Translations under genes and position numbers: made by a program
In this document: positions 4,798 through 60,784 of the stretch, piece by piece
Numbering within the stretch: position 1 is the first letter of the stretch
How the letters are laid out: the number at the start of each line of letters is the position of its first letter
Notes under the pieces: model-generated
The model's input: the letters and a program-made list of their open reading frames with translations, nothing else
Databases searched by the model: none
Told to the model about the DNA's origin: nothing
Assembly: GCA_036898135.1 (NCBI GenBank)
Contig: CM072519.1
Span: forward strand, 70,131,250 to 70,195,249
DNA: 64,000 nt
Direction: 5' to 3'
From: Oncomelania hupensis
Taxonomy: Eukaryota; Mollusca; Gastropoda; Littorinimorpha; Pomatiopsidae

Positions 4798-5996
4798 CGC
4801 AGCAGAAACAACCTGAGTCTTTTGTGTATCTGTTTTGAGTGTAGAAGATGCAAACGGACAGTTGTTTTTTTAACATGTCCCCCCAACCCACAAATATAGC
4901 ATGGATTTGTCGGATTGTTTCTAAGCGGACATTTGAATGAAGAATGGCCACTGCCTTTGCAAAGCTGACATTTCCCAAAATTCATGGACGAGCCACGTCC
5001 GAATCCACCACGATTTTGACCTTGATGAGAATCTGGAACAGTGGATGGCGCACTTCGATTAAAGTTCCAGCGGCCACGGTAACCAACCTGACGTCGATAA
5101 CCACCGTATCCACCGCGAAAATCCGAACGACCCGAAGTCGCATTACCTTCAGCAATGGTATTGAACTGACCAACCGATGCGAACGCAGAAGTACTGGCCT
5201 TGCGAGCCAAATTCTTACCCGGACGAGCAAGACGGTAACTTTCGGCACAATTCACCATGTCCTCGAGGCTGACCAATCCTCTTTCGCGAATGAAAGTAGC
5301 AAGATCTGCAGACACACTCTGTAGAAATTGTTCGCCCAGTACCAAATCAACTATGCCATCTAGAGTACGTTTGACACCCGAAAGTGCAACCCATCGATCA
5401 AACAATCGATTGAGCTCAATGCCAAAAGTTTGAAACGGTTCATTTGCGTCTGGTTTGGTGGCACGAAATTTCTCTCTGAAACCTTCAGCAGTACATTGGA
5501 ATTTTTTTAACAAATTATCTTTCAAAATGTCATAATCACAATGTCCATTTGCAGCTAAACTGTGATACAAACTCAAAGCATTCCCTTCAAGTAAGGCAGA
5601 CAAATAAACAACCCATTGACCCTTTTCCCAGCCAAGTGCAGTAGCATTTGTTTCAAAACGAAACAAGTATGAGTCAATATCATCAGTCTTCTCTCTAAAC
5701 ATGGGAAGTTTAGGAAAAATGGGTGTAGCTTTGAACTGATGCTTCGCATAAGTCTGATCATGATCCTGATCTTGACCAGCAACATGACCACCCTGATTAG
5801 CCTGTAGTTCTAACTGCTTTGTTTTTTCCCTCTCAAGTTCAATGTCCATCCTTTTGTATTCCATTTCTTTTTGTGTATCTAGCTTCTTGGATTCCAATTC
5901 TTTTTGTGTATCTAGCTTCTTGGATTCTAGTTTTCTAGCTTCCAGCTCCATTTCTTTTTGTGTTTCTAATTTCTTGGATTCCATTTCTTTGTCCAT
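4719..5996 (-). CDS. Gag of element B (N-terminus in the gap)
   Basis: This 425-residue reading begins at the edge of the assembly gap, so the first Met is probably internal. Residues 1-70 are a repetitive coiled coil built on KKLDTQKE-like units. Residues about 90-270 are the capsid, with FPKLPMFREKTDDIDSYLFR, FREKFRATKPDANEPFQTF and a SCAN-like helical region. A Gly/Arg-rich basic linker follows. Knuckle 1, CQLCKGSGHSSFKC, is intact (CX2CX4HX4C). Knuckle 2 begins CYICGLGGHVKK and is broken by the frame change. The last ~40 residues are out-of-frame read-through. Confidence 0.8.
   Translation of the reverse strand: MDKEMESKKLETQKEMELEARKLESKKLDTQKELESKKLDTQKEMEYKRMDIELEREKTKQLELQANQGGHVAGQDQDHDQTYAKHQFKATPIFPKLPMFREKTDDIDSYLFRFETNATALGWEKGQWVVYLSALLEGNALSLYHSLAANGHCDYDILKDNLLKKFQCTAEGFREKFRATKPDANEPFQTFGIELNRLFDRWVALSGVKRTLDGIVDLVLGEQFLQSVSADLATFIRERGLVSLEDMVNCAESYRLARPGKNLARKASTSAFASVGQFNTIAEGNATSGRSDFRGGYGGYRRQVGYRGRWNFNRSAPSTVPDSHQGQNRGGFGRGSSMNFGKCQLCKGSGHSSFKCPLRNNPTNPCYICGLGGHVKKTTVRLHLLHSKQIHKRLRLFLLRCLLILKLSVLLLVQLLVIYIWSWVQ
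4865..4871 (-). other. A7 run at the Gag/Pol frame change of element B
   Basis: A run of seven A (minus strand) falls inside the second CCHC knuckle of Gag. Up to the run the Gag frame encodes CYICGLGGHVKK. After it the Pol frame continues as CPFASS. This may be a length mutation in the A run of a decayed copy or a -1 slippage site. Elements A and C use one frame for Gag and Pol, which favours mutation. Confidence 0.5.
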
Positions 5997-6000
5997 TTGT

Positions 6001-6500
6001 NNNNNNNNNNNNNNNNNNNNNNNNNNNNNNNNNNNNNNNNNNNNNNNNNNNNNNNNNNNNNNNNNNNNNNNNNNNNNNNNNNNNNNNNNNNNNNNNNNNN
6101 NNNNNNNNNNNNNNNNNNNNNNNNNNNNNNNNNNNNNNNNNNNNNNNNNNNNNNNNNNNNNNNNNNNNNNNNNNNNNNNNNNNNNNNNNNNNNNNNNNNN
6201 NNNNNNNNNNNNNNNNNNNNNNNNNNNNNNNNNNNNNNNNNNNNNNNNNNNNNNNNNNNNNNNNNNNNNNNNNNNNNNNNNNNNNNNNNNNNNNNNNNNN
6301 NNNNNNNNNNNNNNNNNNNNNNNNNNNNNNNNNNNNNNNNNNNNNNNNNNNNNNNNNNNNNNNNNNNNNNNNNNNNNNNNNNNNNNNNNNNNNNNNNNNN
6401 NNNNNNNNNNNNNNNNNNNNNNNNNNNNNNNNNNNNNNNNNNNNNNNNNNNNNNNNNNNNNNNNNNNNNNNNNNNNNNNNNNNNNNNNNNNNNNNNNNNN
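6001..6500. other. Assembly gap (500 N)
   Basis: A run of exactly 500 N, probably a gap of arbitrary size. Element B should continue into it; its leader and 5' LTR are not visible on the other side. Confidence 0.99.
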
Positions 6501-7114
6501 AATTACTTCTAAGAATTTTTCATCATTTGTATTTGTACTTTATCAAGGGTCAAGGTCATGGCGCTTCACATTTTTCTAAAAATAGTGTGCGCTGTATCTA
6601 AACATTGGATCAGCCATTTGGGATAATTTGTGGTTTGCAGATAGTTACGATGGTGTTCTATTGTTGCAACACCATCAACACTTTTGAAAATTTGTATTTT
6701 GCCAATTTAGGACTGTTTGTCAATGTCTTTAAACTACACTTGAATGACTTGCTATCTTGTTATTCATATGTTCCTCTTCTCTTCCTCTTAACATCCTCCT
6801 CCTCCTCCTCTTTCACCACTCCTCCACCTTATTTTTCTCCTCCTCCACCCTCCCTCCCTCCATCTTCTAAGTCTTATTATCCTCACATCGCTAGCAGGTG
6901 GGGGGAGGGGGTGGGGCGGGATGGGCGCAAGGAGATTCTATTTGCTGCTGGCGTTTGGTAAACAGCCTTTGTCAACCGGGTCATGGTCACGTGACGCGAG
7001 ATGCCCGGATCAGACGTCGTTAATGATACCAACGAGCAATTAGTGACTTGGGTCGGTTGTGCCCGCCGTCCATATTCTTCCAGTTGTCTTGGAAACCTCT
7101 CTCCTCGTTTTCTC

Positions 7115-17120: not shown

Positions 17121-17124
17121 CCGG
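17121..17124. other. Target-site duplication CCGG, left
   Basis: Paired with CCGG at 27214-27217. Because CCGG is palindromic, the sequence alone cannot exclude that it belongs to the terminal inverted repeat. Confidence 0.7.
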
Positions 17125-17290
17125 TGTAACGTGCCGAAAGCGTCCCTGGCCCAAATTAACTCCCGGGAGTAAATCTGGGACGGCCTGGTTTTACTCCCGG
17201 GAGTTATTCTGGTCCTGGACCAGATTGACCCCCAGCCTGTTCCAAAATGACTCCCGGGAGTAAAACTGGATCACAGGACCAAAACAGCCC
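17125..17290 (+). repeat. Left terminal inverted repeat
   Basis: Starts TGTAACGTGCCGAAAGCGTC. Palindromes ACTCCCGGGAGT lie at 17159-17170, 17193-17204 and about 17251-17262. CCTGGACCAGATTGACCCCC and CAGCCTGTTCCAAAAT are shared with the right end. They are candidate binding sites for the transposase. Confidence 0.88.
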
Positions 17291-20200
17291 CCCCAACTTC
17301 TCTTGTCTTTTCAATGTATTCTTAGTTCTTAATATGGGAGTTAAAAACGGACAGGCCCAACATCGCCCCCTCAGCTAATCAAAGTAAGTAGGGGAGTCAA
17401 ACGGGGACAGCACCAAAACCGACCCCTACCGATCAGGTGCATCAAATTCTGCACAAGGGAGTTAAACGGGGACAGGACCAAAAACGCCCCCTTACACATC
17501 AGATGCAATAAAACACTGCATAGGGGAGTCAAACGGGGACAGGACCAAAACCGCCCCCCTTACACATCAGATGCAGAAAACACTGCAAAGGGGAGTCAAA
17601 CGGAGACCGGACCAAAACCGCCCCCCTTACACATCAGATGCAGAACTCACTGCATAGGGGAGTGAAACGGGGACAGGACCAAAACCGCCCCCTTACACAT
17701 CAGATGCAGAAAACACTGCATAGGGGAGTGAAATGGGGACAGGACCAAAACCGCCCCCCGTTACACATCAGATGCAGAAAACATTGCATAGGGGAGTCAA
17801 ACGGGGACAGGACCAAAACCGCACCCAGCCCCTTACACATCAGATGCATAAAACACTGCGTGGGGGAGTCAAACGGGGACAGGACCAAAATCGCCCCTCT
17901 TACACATGTAGTTGTAACTACAAAAACACTGCACAGGGGAGTCAAACGGGGACAGGACTAAAACCGCCCCCCTTATACATCAGATGCAGAAAACACTGCA
18001 TAGGGGAGTCAAACGGGGACAGGACCAAAACCGCCCTCTTACACATCAGATGCAGAAAACACTGCATAGGGGAGTCAAACGGGGACAGGACCAACCCCCC
18101 CCTTACACATCAGATGCAGAAAACACTGAATAGGGGAGTCAAACGGGGACAGGACCAAAACCCCCCCCCCCCCTATACATCAGAAGAAGCAAACACTGCA
18201 CAGGGGAAGTCAAACGGGGACAGGACCAAAACCGCCCTCCTACACAATTAGTTGTAACTACAAAACACTGCACATGGGAGTCAAACGGGGACAGGACCAA
18301 AACCGCCCCCCACACATCCCTTACACATCAGATGCAGAAAACACTGCATAGGGGAGTCAAACGGGGACAGGACCAAAACCCCCCCCCCCCTTACACATCA
18401 GATGCAGAAAAACACTGCATAGGGGAGTCAAACGGGGACAGGACCAAAACCGCCCCCCTTACACATCAGATGCAGAAAACACTGAATAGGGGAGTCAAAC
18501 GGGGACAGGACCAAAACCGCCCCCCCCCCCTATTTATCTGAAGAAGCAAACACTGCACAGGGGAGTCAAACGGGGACAGGACCAAAACCGCCCCCCTATA
18601 CAATCAGATGCAAAAACACTGCACAGGAGAGTCAAACGGGGACAGGACCAAAACCGCCTTCCTTACACATCAGATGCAGAAAACACTGCATAGGGAGTCA
18701 ACGGGGACAGGACCAAAACCGCCCCCCTTACACATCAGATGCAGAAAACACTGCATAGGGGAGTCAAACGGGGACCGGACCAAAACCGCCCCCCTTACAC
18801 ATCAGATGCAGAAAACACTGCATAGGGGAGTTAAATGGGGACAGGACCAAAACCGCCCCCCTTACACATCAGATGCAGAAAACACTGCATAGGGGAGTCA
18901 AACGGGGACCGGACCAAAACCGCCCCCCTTACACATCAGATGCAGAAAACACTGCATAGGGGAGTTAAATGGGGACAGGACCAAAACCGCCCCCCTTACA
19001 CATCAGATGCAGAAAACACTGCATAGGGGAGTTAAATGGGGACAGGACCAAAACCGCCCCCCTTACACATCAGATGCAGAAAACACTGCATAGGGGAGTA
19101 AAACGGGGACCGGACCAAAACCGCCCCCCTTACACATCAGATGCAGAAAACACTGCATAGGGGAGTTAAATGGGGACAGGACCAAAACCGCCCCCCTTAC
19201 ACATCAGATGCAGAAAACACTGCATAGGGGAGTCAAACGGGGACCGGACCAAAACCGCCCCCCTTACACATCAGATGCAGAAAACACTGCATAGGGGAGT
19301 TAAATGGGGACAGGACCAAAACCGCCCCCCTTACACATCAGATGCAGAAAACACTGCATAGGGGAGTAAAACGGGGACAGGACCAAAACCGCCCCCCTTA
19401 CACATCAGATGCAGAAAACACTGCATAGGGGAGTCAAACGGGGACCGGACCAAAAACCGCCCCCCTTACACATCAGATGCAGAAAACACTGCATAGGGGA
19501 GTTAAATGGGGACAGGACCAAAACCGCCCCCCTTACACATCAGATGCAGAAAACACTGCATAGGGGAGTCAAACGGGGACAGGACCAAAACCGCCCCCCG
19601 CACTCCATTACACATCAGATGCAGAAAACACTGCATAGAGGAGTCAAACGGGGACAGGACCAACACCGACCCCTACCGATCAGGTGCATAAAACACTGCA
19701 TAAGGGAGGTAAACATGGACAGGACCAAAAACGCCCCCCTTACACATCAGATGCATAAAACACTGCATAGGGGAGTCAAACGGGGACAGGACCAAAACCG
19801 CCCCACCCCCCTCTTAAACATCAGATGCAGAAAACACTGCATAGGGGAGTCAAACGGGTACAGGACCAAAACCGCCCCACCCCCCTCTTAAACATCAGAT
19901 GCAGAAAACACTGCATAGGGAGTCAAACGGGTACAGGACCAAAACCGCCCCCCCCCCCCCCACTCCCTTACACATCAGATGCAGAAAACACTGAATAGGG
20001 GAGTCAAACGTGGACAGGACCAAAACCATCCCCCCTACCCCCCCCCCCCACCGGTATTCATCCGAAGAAGCAGACACTTCACAGGGGAGTCAAACGGTGA
20101 CACAATTAGTTGTAACTACAAACACTGCATAGGGGAGTCAAACGGGGACAGGACCAAAACCGCCCCCCTTACACATCAGATGCAGAAAACACCGCATAGT

Positions 20201-20505
20201 CAAACGGGGACAAGACCAAAACCGACCCCTACCCATCAGATGCAGAAAACACTCCACAAAGGAGTCAAACGAGGACAAAACAAAAACCGCCGCCCCCCCC
20301 CCTCCCCCTACCCATCCGATACATAAAACAGTGCACAGGGGAGTCAAACAGGGACAGGACAAAAACCGCTTCCGTAACAAAATGAATACAAAGTCTAGGC
20401 CCTGAGTTAAACGGGGGACAGGAAAAAAAAACGTCCTCCTACTTCTTCAGAATGGAACAATGACTGAACAGGAGAGTTTAAATTGGCACAAGGCTGAAAT
20501 CGTCC
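17291..20505 (+). repeat. 67-bp satellite array, left arm
   Basis: The unit runs through CACATCAGATGCAGAAAACA, CTGCATAGGGGAGTCAAACG and GGGACAGGACCAAAACCGCC plus a C run. Outer units are diverged and the middle (18660-19600) is nearly uniform. There, units with GAGTCAAACGGGGACCGG and GAGTTAAATGGGGACAGG largely alternate, giving a 134-bp dimer. Some units replace the ATCAGATGCAG part with TTAGTTGTAACTAC (17905, 18247, 20106). Basic Arg/Lys-rich frames within it are artefacts. Confidence 0.95.
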
Positions 20506-20524
20506 CCCTCACCTAACACACATA

Positions 20525-20690
20525 CAAGTCTTTATTGTAAAGTGACTGGCTGGTGGAGAGCTTTCAGTTTTTACCACTAGGGTTGTTTCAGCAGATCTTT
20601 TATGCGGATCAGGGGTTGTCCGGTCCTGATTTGGCTCGGAAGAGTCCGCTGGACCTAAAGCAATAATCATGTAATGTAACACATTTCACA
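20525..20690 (+). mobile_element. R1 retroposon copy, 5' truncated
   Basis: TCTTTATTGTAAAGTGACTGG to GGACCTAAAGCAATAATCATG, with an ATGTAATGTAA tail. A possible duplication is TAACACA-like sequence at both edges. It lies between the left satellite arm and the gene, so it entered after the element was assembled. Confidence 0.85.
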
Positions 20691-21015
20691 TGAGAGTAAA
20701 TCGACCCTTGCACACAGGATGTAATGGAAATATTTGTATTAGCTTTGCACTACATTTGTAAGTCCACTTTGAATATTACTGATGCTGTTGTACGGGTACC
20801 CTGTTGTACGCAAGGTCATGTTGATAGGAGGAATAACGAAGCTTAACGTCCTATTGCATCAGCGTTAAGGACGATCACCACGTCGCCACCCTGACAACAA
20901 CGATCATCATCATCATATCAAAGTTGAGATTGTCATGTTGATATTATGTATGCATGACTATTTAAACTGTAGGCATATTGAGTCTCTTTATGCTATAGTG
21001 TGTGTCGGTGGGTAG
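20691..21015. other. Region upstream of the OTU gene
   Basis: No reverse-complement or forward match to an integrase core could be read here. It contains a (CAT)n stretch at 20905-20918 and ends in GT-rich DNA that runs into the gene's 5' end. Confidence 0.45.
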
Positions 21016-22371
21016 GTGGAAAGAGGGTGCGTGTGGGTAGGTGTATGCGTACGAGTGTGTGTACGTGCGTATGTGGGTGTAGACAGCGACAGCAACAGCA
21101 GCGACAGCAGCGGCGACAGCGGCAGCAAAGAGCGCGACAAGAAAAAAGCAAAGAACAGTGATGTGGGTGAAGACAGCGACAGCAGCAGCAGCGGCGACAG
21201 CGGCAGCAAAGAGCGCGACAAGAAAAAAGCAAAGAACAGTGATGCAGGTGCAGACAGCGACAGCGGCAGCAAAGAGCGCGACAAGGAAAAAGATGCGGGC
21301 AGAGATATTTGCAGCATGGATAGCTTGTACGAAGAAGTCTACAGAAATATCAAAAAAGCACAAACTAAACAAAAAAAATATTACGACAAAAGATTCAGCT
21401 CAACGCACAACTTGCATCCTGGTTCAGTTGTTTTTCTGAAAAATTTCAGAAGAACGACGCGTTTAGGGGACAAGACACAACCTTTCTGGGTCGGACCTTA
21501 TGAGGTTGAAAAGGTACTAGACAAAGGCAGAGTCCAGCTGAAAAACCTGAAGACAGGGAAAATCCTGAAGCACCTGTACAACGCTTCGAACTTGAAGGTG
21601 AAAGAGCAAGCTGATAGTGAAACCAACCAGTCCAGCAAACAAGAACTTCCTACCAGAAATGGGACACAATCAAAACCAGAGACTTCGGAACCAGAGGCTA
21701 CACAAAAAAACCAGCAGTCTCCCAATGAAGGCGGAAGTGTCCATGGCTCTCGCAAAAGGAAACAGAACGTTCCATTCAAAAGAGCCAAAATGCCTAAATC
21801 GGACTCTACAGAAAAACCACAACCAAACGCACAGGGGTTTTCAGATAGGCAAATGCATTTCAGACCAGTGGATTGGTATTGGCAGGAGAACGTGGCAGAC
21901 ATTCTGTATGTAGACATAGAAAAGAAACATTACGTCCAGGACGTCCCCAACGTGTCTGTGCATGATGCCCCGAAGGACAGTATCAGAATAATTGGAGACG
22001 GAAATTGCTTCTACAGAACTCTTAGTTTTTTCATTGTCGGTTCTCAGAACAAACACCTAGTCTTGAGGAGACTGATTGCAACTCACGTAAAAGACAATGA
22101 AGAAAAGTATTTTCAAATATCCAACAAAGAAGACTATGTTCGAACAAGTCGTATGGATCAACCAGGAGTCTGGTCGACTGAAGTAGACATCTTTGCATCA
22201 GCGACCTTTCTCAACACTGACATATTCGTGTATACCTCGCAAGGTCGTGCTGCGCCATGTTGGCTCAGGTACCAGCCTCTAAACAATGTCCCACAGCTGT
22301 TCCCACGCTCGGACCGATCAATGTATATTTGCAATTTGCATGATCATTTCACGCCAGTTTTGAAAGTTTAA
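21016..22371 (+). CDS. GPY/F + OTU cysteine protease protein of the Ginger1-like element
   Basis: Reading of 451 residues. Residues 1-22 come from GT-rich DNA and are doubtful; Met101 (MDSLYEEV) is an alternative start. Residues 23-97 are Ser/Asp and Lys-rich tandem repeats (SGSKERDKKKAKNSD). Residues 114-195 match the integrase C-terminal GPY/F module: QKKYYDKRFS, GSVVFLKNF, then PFWVGPYEV with GPY at 160-162. A basic, nuclear-signal-like stretch SRKRKQ...FKRAK lies at 244-257. Residues 310-451 are an OTU domain: GDGNCFYR gives Asp328 and Cys331, and LHDHFTPV gives His444, so the catalytic residues look intact. OTU enzymes cleave ubiquitin-type links. The DDE core expected upstream of GPY/F is absent. 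The OTU half is free of stops. Confidence 0.82.
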   Translation: MERGCVWVGVCVRVCVRAYVGVDSDSNSSDSSGDSGSKERDKKKAKNSDVGEDSDSSSSGDSGSKERDKKKAKNSDAGADSDSGSKERDKEKDAGRDICSMDSLYEEVYRNIKKAQTKQKKYYDKRFSSTHNLHPGSVVFLKNFRRTTRLGDKTQPFWVGPYEVEKVLDKGRVQLKNLKTGKILKHLYNASNLKVKEQADSETNQSSKQELPTRNGTQSKPETSEPEATQKNQQSPNEGGSVHGSRKRKQNVPFKRAKMPKSDSTEKPQPNAQGFSDRQMHFRPVDWYWQENVADILYVDIEKKHYVQDVPNVSVHDAPKDSIRIIGDGNCFYRTLSFFIVGSQNKHLVLRRLIATHVKDNEEKYFQISNKEDYVRTSRMDQPGVWSTEVDIFASATFLNTDIFVYTSQGRAAPCWLRYQPLNNVPQLFPRSDRSMYICNLHDHFTPVLKV

Positions 22372-22497
22372 ATTAAAATTTGAATTTGCATTACGTTAGT
22401 CCACACTTGATCCTCATGTACATTCTTCTATTATCTCGTGTCTCTTTCTTTCTTTCTTTCTTTGCGTAATGTGTCTGTGCGCGCACGTGTGTGTAGC

Positions 22498-22535
<38 letters not shown>

Positions 22536-23340
22536 TTACTGATAATAAAATCTGAGCGATGTGGCATATACATCACAAACACGCACCCCCCCCCCCTCTC
22601 CTATCTCCTCCCAAAAAAAAGTAGAAAAGAAAATAAAGTATTGTGCAGACAGTATGTCAATTCCGCCCACGATTAGCAAAAACTAAACCAAAATAATTGA
22701 TAACAGGCGCAGAATTTCAGTAACTAAGCATCATTTTGACAACCAACATGCGATTTTTTTCAAAATCCTTGCACTTGTACACTAATATTGTGTGAAAAGA
22801 TCAAAAGAATATAAAGAGATTATGTAAAAATAAAAACAAAACAAAACATTAGGCTATGGTAACTCAAACGTTTGCTTTGCGCATGGATAAAGAAAACATA
22901 AGATAGAATAACAACACTTTCTTAAATAAGACAAATAATAATAAAACAAATTACGTATACATCCACACAATTGTCACCTCCTTCTTCCCCCCCCCCCCCC
23001 CCCCCCCACTAACAATGTTTCCTCCAAATCACAAATATTCAGGGTTGGGACAGCTAGTTTTAATGAACATTTTAGCCGCTACATTTCCGCTACTATTTTA
23101 TGAAAAGTAGTCGCTACCTTTTCGCTACTTTTTTCTAAGGTGCATAGAAGGCAATAAAGCACACAAACACAGAGTTTAAAATAAAAAGAAAGAATACATT
23201 TTTATTCATAATACTTTTCACTTTCTAATGAAAATCGCGAATATTGAATGTAGTAATTTTCTGCAAAAAGTAGTTTTTTACGCTTTTTAAAAAATATAAA
23301 TTATTATGAATTTAAATTTAATTTATTTGATTTTTTTTTC
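22372..23340. other. Downstream region of the OTU gene
   Basis: AT-rich. AATAAA-type signals occur at about 22541 and 22633. Also present are a (TG)n tract (22498-22532) and C runs at 22587-22596 and 22987-23007. No second gene is readable, so I see no DDE core on this side either. Confidence 0.5.
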
Positions 23341-23342
23341 CA

Positions 23343-23475
23343 GTGAGTACGTCACTGATCACCTTATTTTACCTCATTGAACAGAGAGATGCGCCGCCCG
23401 CAAATGTGTTATTGTTAGCCGCACTCGACACGTTGCTTGCGGCACGCACAGTTACCCTTACCGCGCTTTCCGCAT
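23343..23475 (+). repeat. Dispersed repeat shared with 55520-55650
   Basis: GTCACTGATCACCTTATTTT and GCGCCGCCCGCAAATGT resemble the segment upstream of the PIP-box reading frame at 55520-55650. It may be a diverged fragment of the same mobile element. Confidence 0.5.
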
Positions 23476-23819
23476 CGCTGAATGGTCACGGGTCGACATT
23501 TCTGTGTCACAATTTGTGTGTATCCGATTTAAGGGGGAGGGGGTGGGGGGTGGATAGCAAGAACATATAATTTAGTACTTAACAAATACTGCGCTGCACA
23601 ATTTAATTTTGTTCTGATGATAATAATGCAGGATATTGATACGCGCAATTTCTCAAATTAATACTGACTCAAAGCGCAGCGCCCGTACACCAACACACGC
23701 TCAGAATACATCACAAACAATGAACACAGAAACAGAACAGACAAGCACGTAGCGCCCGTACACCAACACACGCAATGAACACAGAAACAGAACAGACAAG
23801 CACGTGGTGGCAGATCACT

Positions 23820-24043
23820 ATTAAATTTTTTATGGAAAGGAAAATTGATTTGTATTTTAAACTTTTGTTGGCTGCATCTATTTTGATGGGAGGGAGAAAA
23901 ACCGGAGTACCCGGAGAAACCCTCGGTGGCCAGAAAAAGTCTCGTACCTGAGTCACAAAGTTTTCGCTCCTTGCAGGGATCGAACCCGCGACCTTCGGCA
24001 TAGGAAAGCAGCGGTCTAACCGACTGCGCTACTGAGCCACCCC
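23820..24043 (-). mobile_element. tRNA-derived SINE, family S1, best copy
   Basis: The minus-strand head is GGTGGCTCAGTAGCGCAGTC (A box) with B box GGGTTCGATCCC about 45 bp on. The body has CCGAGGGTTTCTCCGGGTAC and TCCGGTTTTTCTCCCTCCC. It sits inside the Ginger1-like element. Confidence 0.85.
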
Positions 24044-24229
24044 AATGATGTCATATCGTTACTGATAAGCCATGTTATTATGTCTAAAAGTTAATCAACC
24101 TCTGGTAAAACAGAGAACAAAGTTAATATTGTACTAAACTGTATTGCAACTAACAAATCACAAACAATACATTGTTTTATTCGTTTATTTTAAACACGAA
24201 ATATAGAACTTCCCTGTGCAGTGTTTGCT

Positions 24230-26760
24230 GCATTTGATGAGTAGGGAGAGGGGGGGGGGCGGTTTTGGTCCTGTCCCCCGTTTGACTCCCATGTACAGTG
24301 TTTTGTAGTTACATCTAATGGTGTAGAGGGGGGAGGAAGCGGCTTTGGTCCTGTCCACGTTTGACTCCCTGTGCAGTGTTTGCTTCTTGTGATAGGGAGG
24401 GGGGCGGTTTTGGTCCTGTCCCCGTTTGACTCCCCTGTGCAGTGTTTGCTGCATGTGATGGGTAAGGGTGGGGGGCGGTTTTGGTCCTATCCCCGTTTTA
24501 CTCCCCCCGTGCAGTGTTTGCTGCATGTGGTGGGTAGGGGGGGGGGCGGTTTTGGTCCTGTCCCCGTTTGACTCCCCTGTGCAGTGTTTTCTCTATCTGA
24601 TGGGTGGGGGTGGGGGGGGCGGTTTTGGTCCTGTCCCCGTTGACTCCCCTCTGCAGTGTTTTCTGAATCTGATGGGTTAGGGGGGGGGGGGGGGCGGTCT
24701 TGATCCTGTCCCCGTTTGACTCCCCTGTTCAGTGTTTGCTGCATGTGGTGGGTAGGGGAGGGGGGCGGTTTTGATCCTGTCCCCGTTTAACTCCCCTGTG
24801 CAGTGTTTTGTAGTTACAACTAATTGTGTAGGAGGAGCGGTTTTGGTACTGTCCCCGTTTGGCTCTCCTGTACCGTGTTTTCTGCATCTGATGGGTGGGG
24901 GGGGGGGGGGGCGGTTTCGGTCCTGTCCCCGTTTGACTCCCCTATGCAGTATTTGCTGCATCTGATGGGTTGCGGAGGGGGGGGGGACGGTTTTGAACCC
25001 GTCCCCGTTTGACTCCCCGGTTCAGTGTTTGCTGCATGTGACGGGAAAGGGGGCGGTTTTGGTCCTGTCCCCGTTTAACTCCCCTGTAGAGTGTTTTCTG
25101 CATCTGATGGGTAGGGGGGGGGGCGGTTTTGGTCCTGTCCCCGTTTGACTCCCCTATGCAGTATTTGCTGCATCTGATGGGTTGGGGGGGGGGTGAGACG
25201 GGTTTGATCCCGTGCCCGTTTGACTCCCGGTTCAGTGTTTGCTGCATGCGATGGGTAGGGGGGCGGTTTTGGTCCTGTCCCCGTTTGACTCTCCTTTGCA
25301 GTGCTTTTTGCATCTGATGGATAGGGGGGCGGTTTTGGTCATGTCCCCGTTTAACTCCCCTATGCAGTATTTGCTGCATCTGATGGGTAAGGGGGGGGGA
25401 CGGTTTTGATCCCGTCCCCGTTTGACTCCCCGTTCAGTGTTTGCTGCATGTGATGGGTAGTGGGGCGGTTTTGGGCCTGTCCCTGTTTGACTCTCCTGTG
25501 CAGTGTTTTTTGCATCTGATGGATAGGGGGGCGGTTTTGGTCCTGACCCCGTTTAACTCCCCTGTGCAGTGTTTTCTGGATCTGATGGGTAGGGGGGGGG
25601 AGGGTGCGGTTTTGGTCCTGTCCCCGTTTAACTCTCCTGTGCAGTGTTTTTTGCATCTGATAGATAGGGGGGCGGTTTTGGTCCTGTCCCCGTTTAACTC
25701 CCCTGTGCAGTGTTTTCTGCATCTGATGGGTAGGGGGGGGGGGCGGTTTTTTTGTCCCGTCCCCGTTTGACTCCCTGGTTCAGTGTTTGCCGCATGTGAT
25801 GGGTAGGGGGGGGGGTTAGTACTGTCCCCGTTTAACTCCCCGGTTCAATGTTTGCTGCATGTGATGGGTAGGGGGGCGGTTTTGGTCCTGTCCCCGTTTA
25901 ACTCTCCTGTGCAGTGTTTTTTTGCATCTGATAGATAGGGGGGCGGTTTTGGTCCTGTCCCCGTTTAACTCCCCTGTGCAGTGTTTTCTGCATCTGATGG
26001 GTAGGGGGGGGGGGGGGCGGTTTTTTTGTCCCGTCCCCGTTTGACTCCCTGGTTCAGTGTTTGCCGCATGTGATGGGTAGGGGGGGGGGGTTAGTACTGT
26101 CCCCGTTTAACTCCCCGGTTCAGTGTTTGCTGCATGTGATGGGTAGGGGGCGGTTTTGGTCCTGTCCCCGTTTGACTCTCCTGTGCAGTGTTTTTTGCAT
26201 CTGATTGATAGGGGGGCGGTTTTGGTCCTGTCCCCGTTTAACTCCCCTATGCAGTATTTGCTGCATCTGATGGGTAAGGGGGAGGGGCGGTTTTGATCCC
26301 ATCCCCGTTTGACTCTCCTCTGCAGTATTTACTGCATCTGATGGGTTGTGGGGGGAGGGGGGGTCGGTTTTGATCCCGTCCCCGTTTGACTCCCCAGTTA
26401 AGTGTTTGCTGCATGTGATGGGTAGGGGGGGGGCAGTTTTGATCCTGTCCCCGTTTGACTCTCCTGTGCAGTGTTTTTTGCATCTGATGGATAGGGGGGG
26501 CGGTTTTAGCCCTGTCCCGTTTGACTCCCTTGTGCAGTGTTTTCTGCATCTGATTGGTAGGGGGGGGGGGGGTATTGGTCCTGTCCCCGTTTGACTCTCC
26601 TGTGCAGTGTTTTTTGCATCTAATGGATAGGGGGGCGGTTTTGGTCACGTCCCCATTTGACTCCCCTTTCATTGTATTTTACATGCATTTTGTTAGGGGG
26701 CCTGTTTTGGTCTTGTCCCCGTTTTACTCCCATGATTTTTTCTGATGAGATTACTGACGC
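24230..26760 (-). repeat. 67-bp satellite array, right arm (inverted)
   Basis: The same unit as the left arm in reverse: GGCGGTTTTGGTCCTGTCCC, CGTTTGACTCCCCTGTGCAG and TGTTTTCTGCATCTGATGGG. Units here are more diverged. Long G runs (up to ~14) vary in length. The TAGTTGTAACTAC-type variant also occurs here (about 24305 and 24810). One ~230-bp block at 25700-25870 is repeated at 25950-26120. Confidence 0.95.
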
Positions 26761-27049
26761 AGTCTTCAATTGCTCCTTTTAATAGGCTAGAGGGGGCCAG
26801 TCTGGGCCTGACCCAATCTGACTCTCATCGGTTCTAGATTAGCCCCCCAGGGGTCATTTTGGCACATCTAAATTTGTCCCAGAATGACTCCCGGGAGTGT
26901 ATCTGGGCCAGTCCCAGATTTACTCTCTGTTGCATGGGGGGCTGTTTTAGGACAGACCCACTTTAACTCCCGGGAGTCATTCTGGTACTGAAAAATGTGC
27001 GCCAAACTAACTCCCGGGAGGCTGATCTGGAACACAGTAGAGTGCATAA
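26761..27049. repeat. Diverged satellite and palindrome zone, right
   Basis: ACTCCCGGGAGT-type palindromes occur at about 26886, 26968 and 27010, with spacers unlike the left end. Also GGTTCTAGATTAGCCCCC near 26831. Confidence 0.75.
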
Positions 27050-27213
27050 CATCAATTGTTCCTATGTAATCTTCATTCACCAGAGAGTGATTTTGGAACA
27101 GGCTGGGGGTCAATCTGGTCCAGGACCAGAATAACTCCCGGGAGTAAATCTGGGACGGCCTGGTTTTACTCCCGGGAGTTAATTTGGGCCAGGGACGCTT
27201 TCGGCACGTTACA
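27050..27213 (-). repeat. Right terminal inverted repeat
   Basis: The minus strand begins TGTAACGTGCCGAAAGCGTC at 27213. Palindromes lie at 27134-27145 and 27168-27179. The 22 bp between them (27146-27167) read in the opposite sense to what an inverted repeat of the left end predicts. Confidence 0.88.
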
Positions 27214-27217
27214 CCGG
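27214..27217. other. Target-site duplication CCGG, right
   Basis: Matches 17121-17124. Confidence 0.7.
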
Positions 27218-29285: not shown

Positions 29286-30350
29286 TCATGTGTTGCTGGG
29301 TTCTGATATGGGATCAGCGGCATGCTAGTGCTGTGCTGGGTTGTGATATGGGATCAGCGGCATGCTATAGTGCTGGGTTGTGATATGGGATCAGCGGCAT
29401 GCTAGTACTGTGCTGGGTTGTGATATGGGATCAGCGGCATGCTATAGTGCTGTGCTGGGTTGTGATATGGGATCAGCGGCATGCTATAGTGCTGTGCTGG
29501 GTTGTGGTATGGGATCAGCGGCATGCTATAGTGCTGTGCTGGGTTGTGATATGGGATCAGCGGCATGCTATAGTGCTGTGCTGGGTTGTGACATGGGATC
29601 AGCGGCATGCTATAGTGCTGTGCTGGGTTGTGATATGGGATCAGCGGCATGCTATAGTGCTGTGCTGGGTTGTGGTATGGGATCAGCGGCATGCTAGTGC
29701 TGTGCTGGGTTGTGGTATGGGATCAGCGGCATGCTAGTGCTGTGCTGGGTTGTGGTATGGGATCAGCGGCATGCTAGTACTGTGCTGGGTTGTGATATGG
29801 GATCAGCGGCATGCTATAGTGCTGTGCTGGGTTGTGGTATGGGATCAGCGGCATGCTAGTACTGTGCTGGGTTGTGATATGGGATCAGCGGCATGCTAGT
29901 GCTGTGCTGCGTTGTGATATGGGATCAGCGGCATGCTATAGTGCTGGGTTGTGATATGGGATCAGCGGCATGCTATAGTGCTGTGCTGGGTTGTGATATG
30001 GGATCAGCGGCATGCTAGTGCTGTGCTGGGTTGTAATATGGGATCAGCGGCATGCTATAGTGCTGTGCTGGGTTGTGATATGGGATCAGCGGCATGCTAG
30101 TGCTGTGCTGGGTTGTGGTATGGGATCAGCGGCATGCTAGTGCTGTGCTGGGTTGTGGTATGGGATCAGCGGCATGCTAGTGCTGTGCTGGGTTGTGGTA
30201 TGGGATCAGCGGCATGCTATAGTGCTGGGTTGTGATATGGGATCAGCGGCATGCTATAGTGCTGTGCTGGGTTGTGATATGGGATCAGCGGCATGCTATA
30301 GTGCTGTGCTGGGTAATGTTATGGGATCAGCGGCATGCTAGTGCTGTCAG
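29286..30350. repeat. 42-bp minisatellite with 40- and 36-bp variants (about 26 units)
   Basis: Units contain GATATGGGATCAGCGGCATG and CTATAGTGCTGTGCTGGGTT. Loss of the AT in CTATAG gives 40 bp; loss of the TGTGC part gives a shorter form. Open frames in several phases are artefacts. Confidence 0.95.
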
Positions 30351-39762: not shown

Positions 39763-40325
39763 AGACACACCGACAGAGAGATTAAAAAAAGAGAGATTTT
39801 ATCATTTTTAGCTTTAGGCTAATTGAAGCTATCTTTGACAAAATGCTTGAAGCTGATTAAAATGGCGTCTGTTTATCACGGCAGACCGACTTCTAAAATG
39901 GGATGAGTGAAATTGTCCTCCAATCCAATACCCGATTAGCATAAAACAAAAACCGCGATAATGAAATTGTATTTGAACGAACTTGGAGAGATCATTAAAA
40001 ATTAACTCTTACCACAAGTCGGTGTAGGAAGAAATAAAAACACTTTCAGGAAAAAACAACAACCTGGGGGTGTTTTTCTCCTAATAAAATTACACCGCAG
40101 TCACGAATATAACGCTCCCATGAAGCTTCCATTTGATTTGAAGAAAGCGACCTTCCTCAAAGAACTGGCTCTGAGAAAAATAATATGAAATGTTTTAGTC
40201 TTCTACGAGATACTAGATTATCGTACCGTTCTACACGTAACTTAACTAAACGCAATGTTGTAACTTTTAATTAGAAACAACTACATCCCCTAGAATAATA
40301 TGAAATAGTTTCCATGAACCTACAC
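39763..40325. other. Sequence with no recognisable gene
   Basis: AT-rich, no coding or repeat homology seen. Confidence 0.45.
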
Positions 40326-40842
40326 AATGAATCTACACAATGGATTTCACAATGGATCACACAATGGATTTCACAATGGATTTCACAATGGATCACACAA
40401 TGGATTTCACAATGGATTTCACAATGGATTTCACAATGGATTTCACAATGGATCTCACAATGGATCACACAATGGATTTCACAATGGATTTCACAATGGA
40501 TTTCACAATGGATCACACAATGGATTTCACAATGGATCACACAATGGATTTCACAATGGATCTCACAATGGATTTCACAATGGATTTCACAATGGATCAC
40601 ACAATGGATCACACAATGGATTTCACAATGGATTTCACAATGGATCACACAATGGATTTCACAATGGATTTCACAATGGATCACACAATGGATCACACAA
40701 TGGATTTCACAATGGATCACACAATGGATTTCACAATGGATTTCACAATGGATCACACAATGGATTTCACAATGGATCACACAATGGATTTCACAATGGA
40801 TTTCACAATGGATCACACAATGGATCACACAATGGATCACTG
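40326..40842. repeat. 12-bp minisatellite with two main unit types (about 43 units)
   Basis: Units are ATGGATTTCACA or ATGGATCACACA, with ATGGATCTCACA twice. All frames stay open on both strands because the period is 12. There is no evidence of translation. Confidence 0.97.
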
Positions 40843-42045: not shown

Positions 42046-42189
42046 AGGAGGAGGAGGACGAAGCTGAAGTAGCTAATGAGTTAAAGAGATGAAAGCAGCC
42101 GCAGGCACTGTCATGGGAGTTTTACTGGCTACTGGCAAACTTGTCTTTATTTAGGAAATTGCTGTTATAGAATGAATCTCCGAGGACAT

Positions 42190-42300
42190 TTCAGTGTAAT
42201 AAGATGTTACCTTCAACCTGTAGACCAGGACATTTAGAGTAATGGGATGTTACCTTCAACCTGTAGACCACGACATTTAGAGTAATGGGATGTTACCTTT
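42190..42300. repeat. 43-bp minisatellite, left remnant
   Basis: Two to three units of CAACCTGTAGACCAGGACAT, TTAGAGTAATGGGATGTTAC. Continues as a single part-unit at 42666-42680 and in full at 50783-51590. Confidence 0.9.
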
Positions 42301-44361: not shown

Positions 44362-47300
44362 TTACTGGACCGGGACGAATTCTGGTGCTGTGGCCCTTAG
44401 TTGTGTTGGGTGGGCGACAGCTGATGTGTCCTCCACGAGATGGCGACTGAGGTAGTCGGCTCCGTGGTTTTCCTTGCCGGGGATGTACTCGATTTGGAAT
44501 GAGTATGCCTGAAGGGTGAGGGCCCATCTCATGAGGCGAGAGTTCAAAGATTTGGAGGCTGCCAGGAACGATAGTGGTTGGTGGTCCACCTGAACTGTGA
44601 AGTGGGTCCCATACAGGTAGAGTTGGAATTTCTGTATGGCCCAGACTAGTCCAAGGCATTCTTTCTCCGACGTGGCGTAGTGGGTCTCGGCGGGTCTCAA
44701 TTTTCTGCTGGCGTAGGCGACAGGGAATAGCGTCTCTGCATTCTTGGGGTCGCGCTGTAGCAGTACTGCTCCGAGGCCTAAGTCGCTTGCGTCGGTGCGA
44801 AGAACGAATGGCTGAGTCAAATCGGGTAGGTGGAGTACTGGCGCCGATGTCATTCTGTCCTTGAGTGTTTGGAATGCTGTCTCGCAGTCCGCTGTCCAAA
44901 CTACTTTGTCCGGGGCGATTTTCCGGGTTCCATTTGTCAGTGGTACGGCGATGCTGTTGTAGTTGGGGATGAACTTCTGGTAGAAGCCGCAGAGTCCTAG
45001 AAACGACTGCACCTCCTTCTTGGTCTTGGGCCTAGGAGCGTCGAGTAGGCGTTTCACGGTCTTTTCTACCGATCGCAGGCTTCCTTGACTTATGATGTGT
45101 CCCAGAAATTCTAGCTCGGTGAATCCAATCTGACATTTGGTGGGTCTTGCCGTCAACCCCGTGTCTCTGAGGCGGGCGAGTAGTTGTTGTAGGAGCGTGA
45201 CATGTTCCTCCCACGTAGGTGTTGCGATGAGGATGTCGTCCATAAACGAATGTAGGTGCTCGCTGCTCAGGGGTGCCAGGAGTTTTCGCATCATGGCGCT
45301 GAAGATGCTGGGTGCGTTGTGGAGTCCGAATGGAAGCACGTTGAATTCGAAGTGTCCTTCCATAGTGCTGAAAGCTAGGTACTTTCGGACTTGCGGTTGC
45401 ACTGGTATCTGGTAGTATCCTTTGCTGAGGTCGATGCGTGAGAAGTACTTTGCTCGCTGTAGCTTGGCAAATAGGTCTGTCTGGTCCGGGAGTGGCTCTG
45501 GCTGGAACTGCGTTACCGCATTCAGGAGTCTGAAGTCGATGCACAGTCGATGCTCTCCGTTGGGTTTTCGCAACAATACCGTGCCTGCGCTGTAGGGTGA
45601 GGTAGACTCTGAGATGATTCCGGCTGCCAGTAAGGTGTCTATCTCTTCCTTGATGGCTCGCTGCTGAGACAGTGGCATCGGGTAGAGCTTCTGGCGGACG
45701 GGTGTTGGGTCGGTCACCGTTAAGGTTACTTCGACGAGGTCTGTCCTCCCTGGTCGGTCTGTGAGCACAGTCTGATGTTGTCGAATGACCTGTAGTACTT
45801 GCTGTCGCTGGTTAGCGGCTAGGTCTCCGTTGAGTATCACGTCTTTGTAGGTTTCTTTGGAGTGCAGGGGATACTCTACTGCATTGGTCTCCATGCTTTC
45901 TCCTTCTTCCGCGATGGCGATGGCTAGCAAGTTGTGAGTGCTGGGGGTCGCTGGTCGGTCCGTATATTTCTTGAGGAGATTGATGTGGTGGTATCGGGCT
46001 CTCCCGTTCACCTCTACTTGGTAGACTGTCTTGGATTTCTTGGCAGTCACCCGGTACGGTCCTCTCCAAGCGATGTCCAGCTTGTTGGTTCCACTTGGAA
46101 GTAAGAGTAGCACTTGATCGCCGACTTGCAGTTCTCTGTCCTTCGCGTGGCGGTTGTAGTACTTCGCCTGACGGGCTCTTGCCTTCTTCAGTGCTTCACC
46201 AGCTTTCTTCCACGTTGCTTTGAGGGTTTCCTGCAGGTCTGCGACGTACTTGGTGGCACCTCTTGGTGTGTCGTCTATCTTGGCCTCCGTCCAACTTCTG
46301 CGTAGGGCTTCTAGCGGTCCTGCTAGAGGTCTGCCGAATAGCAATGTTGACGGGGTGTAGCCTGTGGCTGCATGGGGCGTTTCTCTATACGCGAACAGTG
46401 CCGCATTCACGTAGGTGTCCCACGCTTCTGGATTGTCGTCGGCGACTTTCCTGAGTATGGTGAGAAGGGTTCCATTCAGTCTTTCTACTTGTCCGTTGCT
46501 GGCGGGGTGGTATGGTGGTGTGCGAATGTGATGAACTTGTATCAACTCGAACACGTCTTGCATCAGGCGGCCGGTGAACTGAGATCCGTTGTCCGTTCTA
46601 ATGCTGTCCGGGAATCCGACTCTGGTAAAGATGGCGATGAGTGCATCTGCGATCTTCTTGGTGTCTATCGCTGGCAACGGGACTGCTTCGCACCACATCG
46701 TACATGCGTCGACGAGTGTGAGTAGAAATCTGTTCCGCTTCTTGGTCATGGGCAGTGGTCCTACTATGTCTACTGAGACTTGCTGGAATGGCACGCCGAC
46801 TACTACTGATGGTCCTAAGGTAACTGGTACGGTGTGATGTCGCGGGGAATATCGTTGACATTGGTGGCAAGATTTCACGTAGCGCTTGACATCCTCCGTG
46901 ATTCCTTGCCAATAGTAGTGTGCGCTGATTCTCTGCACTGTGGCTCCAATTCCCATGTGTCCGCTGAGTGGCATGCTGTGGCCTAGTTCTAGTACTTGGG
47001 CTCGAAGGGTGGCTGGTAGTACTAGTTGGGTGTGATCTCCATCTCCTTGTCGATGTAGAACTCCCTCTTCCATGTAGAAGTCTCCCTTGTGCGGGGGTGT
47101 GTGCGCCTTGGGTAGCTTCTGGAAGCACTTCGCTATCGAGGTGTCTTCTTTCTGTGCTGTTTTGATCTCTTCGAGTCCTGGGTTCGGAGCGAACTCGGGC
47201 TGGGGTGGTTGGGTTTTATCTTGGGCCCTGGTTTGCACTGCAGCTATCTCTACAGTTTTAGGGGGCGTGCCTAAGAACACATACCTACAACCTAGCACTA

Positions 47301-48192
47301 GATCATACAGGGGTTTCTGTAACACAGCTGCTTGGATTCGTCCTGTGACGTACCTACTCTCTACTTCTATCCAAGCTATTGGGCAAGTAGTCGTCGGTTT
47401 CGTCAAGTCTGCTCCTTGTAGTTCGACTGTCTTGTCTGTCAAGTCCGCGCGCGATACAAGAGATTCGCTAACTATCGCGTCGTATGATAGACCTGTGTCA
47501 TACAGACAGTTCGCTTCTTTTCCGTTGACCTTGACCGTGTCTGTCACCGATGGGTGATCTCCGATCGTGTGTGGCTTGTTACCGCTGCTTTGAGTTAGAA
47601 CTCTGTGCGCTGGCCGGCTTTCGCGCTCTTCCCTACGTTGTGCGGCCAACTTGAAACATTCTGCGGTGGAGTGATTGTTTCTGTTGCAGAACGAACAATA
47701 CCGTCTCTGTTCTGCGGGACCTCTTTTCCCGAATTCCGTGTTGGGTCCTTTATTTTGCCCAGGTCTGGGGTTATTCGGCTTATTCGCGGTGCGCTCTTCC
47801 CGGTTAGGGCTTCGTTTCTGTGCCTCTTTCCCGTTAGGCTTTAGGTCTCGCCTGAAGCTCTTGGCTTCTCCGTGGGCGGCCACGTACCTATCTGCGACCT
47901 TGACCAGATCTTCTAGTCTTTCCGCGCCCTGCTCTACTGAGAATGTCCTCAGCTCGGGGGTCATGGTTTCCCGTAGCTGTTCCCATACTAACAGTTCTGT
48001 CAGTCCATCATACGTCTTATCCGTGGCTGACTGGCTAATCCACTTATCCAGCGTTGTGGACAACCGATCCGCGAACTGCGCATAGCTCTCTCCTTTCACT
48101 CTCCGATTGGTGCGGAATTTTTGCCGGTAGCATTCTCCTGTTAGTTCGAATCCCGTTAGGAGTGCCTCTTTTACTTTGTGATAGTCCGTCAC
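44362..48192 (-). CDS. Gag(C-part)-protease-integrase-RT-RNase H polyprotein of element C
   Basis: 1276 residues without a stop, counted from the Met at 48192; the frame begins further upstream after a frame break. Gag part: SCAN-like ECYRQKFRTNRR ... TLDKWISQSA ... VADRYVAAHG at 20-107, and knuckle CSFCNRNNHSTAEC at 166-179. Protease: YDTGLSYDAIVS, Asp232. Integrase: zinc site H405, H412, C442, C445; catalytic D475, D534 and E570, with exactly 35 residues between the last two; GPY/F at 711-713. Reverse transcriptase: LRKPNGEHRLCIDFRLLN at 874-891 and FMDD at 983-986. RNase H: D1134, E1176/E1178, D1203, ending near 1250. All catalytic residues look present. Integrase precedes RT, the Ty1/copia order, although the domains are Ty3/gypsy-like. 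Confidence 0.95.
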   Translation of the reverse strand: MTDYHKVKEALLTGFELTGECYRQKFRTNRRVKGESYAQFADRLSTTLDKWISQSATDKTYDGLTELLVWEQLRETMTPELRTFSVEQGAERLEDLVKVADRYVAAHGEAKSFRRDLKPNGKEAQKRSPNREERTANKPNNPRPGQNKGPNTEFGKRGPAEQRRYCSFCNRNNHSTAECFKLAAQRREERESRPAHRVLTQSSGNKPHTIGDHPSVTDTVKVNGKEANCLYDTGLSYDAIVSESLVSRADLTDKTVELQGADLTKPTTTCPIAWIEVESRYVTGRIQAAVLQKPLYDLVLGCRYVFLGTPPKTVEIAAVQTRAQDKTQPPQPEFAPNPGLEEIKTAQKEDTSIAKCFQKLPKAHTPPHKGDFYMEEGVLHRQGDGDHTQLVLPATLRAQVLELGHSMPLSGHMGIGATVQRISAHYYWQGITEDVKRYVKSCHQCQRYSPRHHTVPVTLGPSVVVGVPFQQVSVDIVGPLPMTKKRNRFLLTLVDACTMWCEAVPLPAIDTKKIADALIAIFTRVGFPDSIRTDNGSQFTGRLMQDVFELIQVHHIRTPPYHPASNGQVERLNGTLLTILRKVADDNPEAWDTYVNAALFAYRETPHAATGYTPSTLLFGRPLAGPLEALRRSWTEAKIDDTPRGATKYVADLQETLKATWKKAGEALKKARARQAKYYNRHAKDRELQVGDQVLLLLPSGTNKLDIAWRGPYRVTAKKSKTVYQVEVNGRARYHHINLLKKYTDRPATPSTHNLLAIAIAEEGESMETNAVEYPLHSKETYKDVILNGDLAANQRQQVLQVIRQHQTVLTDRPGRTDLVEVTLTVTDPTPVRQKLYPMPLSQQRAIKEEIDTLLAAGIISESTSPYSAGTVLLRKPNGEHRLCIDFRLLNAVTQFQPEPLPDQTDLFAKLQRAKYFSRIDLSKGYYQIPVQPQVRKYLAFSTMEGHFEFNVLPFGLHNAPSIFSAMMRKLLAPLSSEHLHSFMDDILIATPTWEEHVTLLQQLLARLRDTGLTARPTKCQIGFTELEFLGHIISQGSLRSVEKTVKRLLDAPRPKTKKEVQSFLGLCGFYQKFIPNYNSIAVPLTNGTRKIAPDKVVWTADCETAFQTLKDRMTSAPVLHLPDLTQPFVLRTDASDLGLGAVLLQRDPKNAETLFPVAYASRKLRPAETHYATSEKECLGLVWAIQKFQLYLYGTHFTVQVDHQPLSFLAASKSLNSRLMRWALTLQAYSFQIEYIPGKENHGADYLSRHLVEDTSAVAHPTQLRATAPEFVPVQ

Positions 48193-48323
48193 TCGGTCAG
48201 TCGGTAGCTTACTGTAGATGTCATAAGCCTTTCCTCTAAGCCCTTGACTAAGCTTAAAAGACCAATGAGTGGGATCTAGTTTGTACTCTGTTGCTAGACG
48301 CTCAAACCTAGTCAGATAGAGAT

Positions 48324-52600: not shown

Positions 52601-52608
52601 CCGATGAC

Positions 52609-60731: not shown

Positions 60732-60784
60732 TACCCTTTGCAGATATGGTGGTAGCCGGCTTTTAAGAGTTTCAACATTTGGAT

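Follow-up and report, generated by a model that had tools for sequence, protein, structure and literature searches.

Inverted satellite arms in a Ginger1-type transposon family of Oncomelania hupensis

Introduction

How does a transposon come to carry two opposed satellite arrays between its ends, and do the arrays travel with it? This question is raised by a 10.1-kb element at positions 17125..27213 of a 64-kb stretch of the genome of the gastropod Oncomelania hupensis (GenBank assembly GCA_036898135.1, contig CM072519.1, positions 70,131,250 to 70,195,249), referred to here as the window. An initial annotation, made from the letters of the window, described identical ends flanked by CCGG, a 67-bp unit arrayed in opposite orientations in the two arms and, at the centre, a gene with GPY/F and OTU modules, and read the whole as a Ginger1 derivative whose ends and arrays form one mobile unit. 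In passages of their description, Ginger1 transposons have TGTNR ends, 4-bp duplications that are CCGG (75%) or CCGT/ACGG (24%), and genes with rve, GPY/F, and OTU or Ulp1 domains (PMC2836005); their lengths are 2.6-7 kb, their terminal inverted repeats (TIRs) 40-270 bp, and their genes contain introns (Bao, Kapitonov & Jurka, 2010, PMC2836005). We conclude with high confidence that the element is a Ginger1 foldback, derived by deletion within a Ginger1 family whose arms are inverted satellite arrays.

Structure of the window element

The 20-bp ends of the element lie at 17125-17144 (+) and 27194-27213 (-), and CCGG stands on either side as a target-site duplication, at 17121..17124 and 27214..27217. 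The ends belong to TIRs at 17125..17258 (+) and 27080..27213 (-), where mismatch within the outermost 124 bp is confined to one 22-bp segment (17171-17192). This segment is an exact inversion between the two ends, is bounded by two ACTCCCGGGAGT palindromes, and lies at the left end in what we term the 'u' orientation. The palindrome CTCCCGGGAG occurs eight times in the window, every copy within the element: three in the left TIR, two in the right TIR, and three in the right subterminal region (26752..27079, -), which also contains degenerate units, as does the left subterminal region between TIR and array (17259..17388, +).

Inward of these regions lie the two satellite arms. The left (5′) array (17389..20526, +) comprises about 46 units, which near 18756-19560 alternate in a two-unit higher-order repeat, while in the right (3′) array (24208..26751, -) the unit is reversed, and about 38 units form a multi-unit higher-order repeat. 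Tandem Repeats Finder places the 67-bp left array at 17389-19953 (to 20296 where the period is given as 134 or 201 bp) and the opposed right array, of about 66 bp, at 24251-26667; wraparound alignment stretches the left array to 17199-20526 (49 pieces, the outermost degenerate) and the right to 24208-26751 (38 pieces). Mean unit identity is 82% in the left arm, 83% in the right arm and 80% between arms. In architecture the window element is a foldback transposon, since long inverted repeats of tandem units, with target duplications outside them, are found in it and in the other elements read below.

The core between the arms begins with a segment (20527..21070, +) that lies before the deletion point discussed below, and of which 20550-20970 matches at least 40 places at 99-100%. 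A 451-aa open frame (21016..22371, +, stop to stop) follows, consisting of a tandem acidic/basic linker of 81-bp repeats (21071..21312, +), a GPY/F-like region and an OTU domain, and is read as a truncated Ginger1-type transposase. The OTU cysteine protease domain (21994..22320, +; GDGNC ... HDHF) is recognised by Pfam (PF02338, E = 4e-9), and this region also matches the OTUD1 structure 4bop (E = 1.5e-5). The GPY/F-like region (21313..21600, +; WVGPYEV) aligns with the proteins P0001 and P0002, its right edge being set by eye, and weakly, over 21313-21507, with the C-terminal part of the integrase of the window's Gypsy element (29% over 65 aa, E = 0.004-0.14 depending on the database, with 0.02 when the element and 0.14 when the whole window is searched). 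The core ends in a non-coding part (22372..24207, +) with, by eye, a stretch near 23900-24050 that resembles a tRNA-derived short interspersed element; no tRNA gene was found there or elsewhere in the window. At the opposite edge of the core, adjoining the left array, is a 152-bp dispersed repeat (20528-20679); elsewhere in the window, seven places match it wholly or in part at 84-98%. The ends, CCGG flanks, opposed arrays and OTU gene of the initial annotation are all borne out, the GPY/F-like region being weak.

The element inserts as one unit

The genome searched was that of the window itself (1,449,719,270 bases in 428 contigs, with the window at C9:70131250-70195249). Allowing up to two mismatches, the 20-bp end occurs 216 times in forward and 193 times in reverse orientation, against 1 + 1 for a reversed control, which excludes chance. 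The first 100 places listed, all of them exact, contain 39 facing pairs 3.5-29.7 kb apart, and 22 places without an exact partner. Thirty of the 39 pairs were fetched, all shorter than 15 kb, a sample biased against longer copies and against those whose ends have changed; with the window copy this gave 31 elements, all selected by their ends.

In all 31 elements the units of the left arm run forward and those of the right arm in reverse, with one to four wrong-way matches per element, and TGTAACG, by which they were selected, stands at both ends of each, in agreement with the TGTNR termini of Ginger1. Exact 4-bp duplications stand on either side of the window copy and of 28 of the 30 fetched elements (29/31). 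The duplication is CCGG in 23 cases, CCGT in two, and ACGG, AGCG, CGGG and CCAG in one each, so that 26 are of the CCGG, CCGT or ACGG type; in none of the 31 does it extend to 5 bp. Copies of a single tRNA-like repeat contain or adjoin three of the insertions (L018, L034 and L035), the left flank being identical over 81 bp in L018 and L034.

The window also supplies an empty site, as the initial annotation had suggested seeking. When the flanks of one core-less element (L015, C1:37895089) are joined, 196 of 196 bases agree with window positions 47518..47713 (+), where CCGG stands once, at 47614-47617, inside a Gypsy-type element (44362-48342, -) with a 1,326-aa open frame that includes an integrase. 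A second Gypsy copy (L049) matches the joined flanks at 97%. What inserted was therefore the whole inverted-array element: the ends and everything between them move into a site as one unit, with a 4-bp duplication.

A single locus could not have ruled out that ends and satellite are unrelated, the element having inserted in or beside an existing satellite, or arrays having grown in a dead element at one place; satellites beside transposons are common. The structure shared by all 31 end-selected elements, with inverted arrays between the ends, and the empty site, which lacks the arrays, refute this explanation, to which we assign next to no probability. Starting from the unit rather than the end leads to the same result, because the first 100 unit places listed (of 6,651) fall into nine clusters, all on C1, each within 5.3 kb of an end. 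One of these, at C1:31.59 Mb, was considered as a candidate free array, and its end, read directly, proved to be present with one mismatch.

Derivative classes and a fuller relative

The fetched elements fall into three structural classes. Class 1 (10/30) resembles the window copy and bears the open reading frame (ORF), with a core of 3.6-4.3 kb that is 96.7-99.3% identical to that of the window in the best alignment. Class 2 (4/30: L042, L048, L036 and L019) has partly deleted cores, the pieces in L048 being 88-95% identical to the window core. In class 3 (16/30) there is no core, and arms of 13-79 units meet at a single shared junction. A 44-base sequence across this junction occurs at 63 places in the genome (52 exact, control 0), and the units at the junction match those at or near the inner arm edges of class 1; class 3 therefore looks like a single deletion event that later spread. 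Of the 15 class-1 and class-2 elements, window copy included, 14 have the 22-bp segment at their 5′ end in the 'u' orientation, an arrangement absent from L048 and from the 16 core-less elements. A genome-wide search for the 61-bp 'u' end gave 59 matches, every one exact despite the two mismatches allowed. The family includes two derivative classes, one with a core of about 3.7 kb and a truncated ORF, to which the window copy belongs, and one with no core.

It could be objected that the identical ends and inverted arrays were produced by misjoins or collapsed repeats in the assembly. Repeated sequence is prone to such errors, the window has an N gap (5966-6502), and L022 and L023 (C1:74.26 and 74.96 Mb) are one element with reverse-complementary, mirror-image flanks 0.7 Mb apart on one contig, probably one insertion in a duplicated block, itself an inverted segmental duplication or an assembly duplicate. 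Such errors would hardly have placed different flanks with matching 4-bp duplications around 28 of 30 loci (L022 and L023 probably counting as one insertion), repeated an identical core-less junction at 63 places, or produced an empty site with one CCGG, and we regard an artefact as very improbable.

No integrase core was found at E < 1e-3 in the window copy or in the 30 fetched elements. A core hidden in the window copy was also sought by tblastn with the window's Gypsy integrase, which found the core in Gypsy-type stretches only. Viral contigs held neither a relative of the ORF nor a copy of the 20-bp end. The fuller form was reached through P0001, a protein of another record in which the end of an integrase core is joined to the GPY/F-OTU region known from the window copy, with 59% identity over 400 aa. 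In the O. hupensis genome it has at least 119 matches, a lower bound since 92 of 5,177 candidates were scored. Five of these matches sit in a 717-aa open frame, against 451 aa in the window class. In one of the five (L050, on C5), 1,408 bp are 100% identical to the window core, the identity starting at about 21071. Upstream of this stretch the 717-aa frame also encodes an integrase core (rve, E = 8e-13), with the integrase 3dlr as its best PDB match (E = 1.6e-9), and the frame as a whole is read as rve, GPY/F-like region and OTU (E = 6e-9). On its 3′ side L050 enters the inverted array, and 706 bp there, about two units among them, are 98.6% identical to the window element. At the corresponding distance in the copy on C2 (L052), an 801-bp strip is without unit or element sequence, which suggests an insert there.

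The spacing of the 5′ side gives the position of the deletion. From the 5′ core segment downstream to the protein match, the distance is about 6.55 kb in each of the five 717-aa copies and 0.15 kb in the window; the window copy thus arose by an internal deletion of about 6.5 kb, with the joint near 21071. Beyond the 5′ core segment, the exact 61-bp 5′ end follows after 3.4-3.8 kb on C5, C6 and C108 and after 16.5 kb on C82 (four of the five copies), while none is found among the matches listed on C2. By this deletion the window copy derives from a fuller Ginger1 in which at least the 3′ array is likewise present, and full-length copies, estimated from the C6 copy plus the 3′ arm of the window copy, would be about 17 kb long. 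The Ginger1 affinity proposed at the outset is in this way upheld by TGTAAC ends, CCGG-type duplications and OTU, together with the rve core of a fuller relative, the copy with a DDE core that was to be looked for.

Upstream of the integrase frame on C5 (L053, C5:52587701-52589700) is an intron-like stretch and, in a separate frame, a C-x2-C half-finger (GKCDVC, by eye), the sole trace read of the H2C2 zinc finger and YPYY motif that characterise Ginger1. The opposite strand of L053 carries a fragment that by eye resembles a frame of the long interspersed element type at window positions 60220-60762. A second, diverged Ginger1-like family is present at G000:C3:70903120, C7:46549492 and C14:58085449, with 34% identity to P0001 and 526-aa frames; the end of the integrase core is matched there separately.

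The satellite is carried by the element

If the unit also existed as free satellite, it should be more abundant than the elements can account for. Genome-wide, the 32-base unit core has 3,437 + 3,214 matches (6,651), against 0 for the control. The 31 elements average 42.6 such matches each; at this rate about 156 elements would account for the genome total, a number below that of the ends counted above, so that no free satellite is needed. Long free arrays, the mark of a classical satellite, do not appear, there being no excess of units outside elements by the genome count or among the first 100 places listed. The family had been proposed as a mobile source of satellite DNA; carriage of satellite is seen, not escape.

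The origin of the unit was sought at the array edges. When scored against the unit, the left subterminal stretch (17263-17388) reaches 57, where the best of its shuffles reaches 34, and the right subterminal zone reaches 51, where the best reaches 46 (0/200 in each case). The outer TIR, by comparison, is not unit-like in array orientation, where 18 and 28 of 200 shuffles reach its score at the two ends, while in the opposite orientation it scores 36 against shuffle maxima of 34 and 35 (0/200 each), a marginal sign that it holds an inverted unit remnant. A unit made by multimerisation of the outer TIR was rejected on these scores, being within the shuffles in one orientation and barely above all 200 in the other. 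Because the outer TIR stays near shuffle level, the proposed origin of the unit is confined to the subterminal zone. Of the proposed expansion of subterminal repeats into satellite, what stands is the presence of degenerate units inside both TIRs; the arrays are common to the family, and no such event belongs to this copy.

An ancestor could instead have captured a host satellite that the element merely disperses, the units owing nothing to its own subterminal sequence. Helentrons carry satellite-like arrays (passages of PMC7492417), and an outer TIR that is not unit-like in array orientation would fit such a history. A captured satellite is nevertheless unlikely, given that the 6,651 unit-core matches amount to fewer average elements than there are ends and that degenerate units grade toward both TIRs.

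For comparison of the arrays, copies were coded as unit strings. Unit order agrees between copies from both ends inward and differs in mid-array. Relative to the window, blocks of 1-7 units set apart the 5′ arms of the ten class-1 copies, and blocks of up to 25 units the 3′ arms of nine of the ten; L031 was set aside, its apparent gain of 54 units being mostly non-unit sequence in the arm. Array lengths vary greatly among copies whose cores are about 99% identical: by nhmmer, arms in the elements read have 15-85 units, and those of class 1 have 40-57 units on the 5′ side and 36-85 on the 3′ side. The second arm of the core-less L015 has the unit string of a class-1 5′ arm, which we read as recombination between copies, while some single-base variation in runs of C may be sequencing error. 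Unit variants are common to both arms, the GTTGTAACTAC type being found in arm 1 of all 31 elements and in arm 2 of 30. Within the unit, agreement with the consensus is 93% in the GGGAGT...CCG block and 86% in the last 26 bases (1,367 of 1,376 distinct units, of length 58-80); the better-kept block is compatible with a binding site but is no proof of one.

Comparison with known foldback elements and satellites

Termini, 4-bp duplications and OTU, plus the rve core of the fuller relative, are shared with Ginger1. The differences lie in length, 10.1 kb for the window copy and an estimated 17 kb or so for full-length copies, and in the 2.5-3.1-kb arrays behind a TIR of about 125 bp; the word 'tandem' does not occur in the text of the Ginger1 paper (PMC2836005), whereas this family has tandem arrays. 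Tetris, a foldback of Drosophila virilis, shares the long inverted repeats with tandem repeats, the non-autonomous state and the link to satellite DNA, and in passages of its description it has a unit of about 220 bp and gave rise to a satellite (PMC4079207). Its authors state that most foldbacks seem to be Mutator elements and that exceptions exist (PMC4079207). Tetris itself is assigned to Mutator by duplications of 8-10 bp, and passages of that description report no autonomous copy, while the present family has 4-bp duplications and a fuller, integrase-bearing relative; Tetris fed a real satellite, and here no free satellite was detected. Galileo also has long, internally repetitive TIRs, and the repeats of this foldback contain binding sites for its transposase (passages of PMC3688188), a feature that the family described here might share. 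Galileo belongs to the P superfamily and has a THAP-domain transposase, whereas the transposase here is of the integrase type.

Helentrons are rolling-circle elements. The Cg_HINE Helentrons of Crassostrea gigas carry satellite-like arrays and, like the present family, spread them across a genome, but their arrays are central, in place of two opposed arrays with 4-bp duplications (passages of PMC7492417). The oyster satellite CgiSat41, with a 1,736-bp unit, is labelled DNA/Ginger1 in a table row (PMC8268682), so a link between Ginger1 and satellite is already in print; neither inverted arms nor a 67-bp unit, both present here, appear in those table passages. The initial annotation knew of no description of Ginger ends built in this way, and no Ginger foldback was found in the open-access literature searched. 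A transposon foldback linked to satellite was already known from Tetris, and the new part is a Ginger1 family with foldback architecture.

Other features of the window

The assembly gap falls within a Gypsy-like gag frame. L049 (C1:7896975), which holds a 97%-identical copy of the window Gypsy integrase, is apparently nested in another member of the family described here. Further minisatellites lie at 29294-30347 (40-42 bp), 40322-40837 (12/36 bp), 50783-51572 (43 bp) and 52606-53421 (27 bp), and the 43-bp unit is also present at 42183-42299.

Discussion

Several observations weigh against reading the window element as a mobile Ginger1 foldback with arms of its own making, in addition to the scores of the outer TIR. 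Two of the 30 fetched elements lack a clean duplication. In L041 the right TIR is shortened and the duplication is absent; in L034 (C1:137953.3 kb) CCGG is separated from the left end by 17 bp, a palindromic remnant composed of two fragments of the end (TGTAACGTGCCGTTACA), which looks like the excision or deletion scar of an earlier copy at that site. GPY/F is weak by sequence, with no Pfam match in the window ORF or in the 717-aa frame. In nine of the ten other ORF-bearing copies (L025 was left out, its anchor not being found), comparison of the truncated ORF with the window gave five substitutions, all five of them replacements, and frame-breaking indels in five of the nine, so that no purifying selection on it is visible in these copies. 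The 5′ array of full-length copies is deduced from spacing, and of their 3′ arrays about two units of one were read. Lastly, insertion is read here from the sequence, and binding by the transposase is proposed.

These points leave the Ginger1 foldback as the reading that we hold with high confidence, and the following mechanism would be consistent with it. Units would have arisen from the subterminal region and may hold repeated transposase-binding sites, by analogy with Galileo; the transposase of the fuller copies would move the short copies in trans, and array length would change by unequal exchange, or by repair and slippage. The most far-reaching form of this proposal is a self-spreading satellite, in which the unit would be a multimerised transposase-binding site, array length would be reset during or after transposition, and the core-less class, with its 63 junctions, would be a mobile, near-pure satellite palindrome that competes for the integrase-type transposase of the full-length copies. 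We offer this tentatively, as a possibility with the odds against it. We give somewhat more credence, if still short of an even chance, to arrays that have no role, being by-products of slippage and unequal exchange that are tolerated since the transposase reads only the TIRs. Their length is free to vary (15-85 units per arm), core-less copies with arms of 13-79 units are common, and the arms have homogenised middles and degenerate edges, which is typical of unconstrained satellites. Arrays without a role are harder to reconcile with the fact that none of the 31 elements read is array-free, with the better-kept GGGAGT...CCG block (0.93 against 0.86 agreement for the last 26 bases), and with the tandem repeats of Galileo, which contain its transposase-binding sites (passages of PMC3688188).

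The origin of satellites from transposons, or their travel with them, is usually inferred from decayed remains, whereas here fuller, core-deleted and core-less forms occur together in one genome. The cores are near-identical and the separate insertions number in the dozens; since every copy replicates the array from which all started, the gain, loss and exchange of units can be counted directly. The foldback architecture is now placed in a superfamily whose transposase is a relative of integrases.

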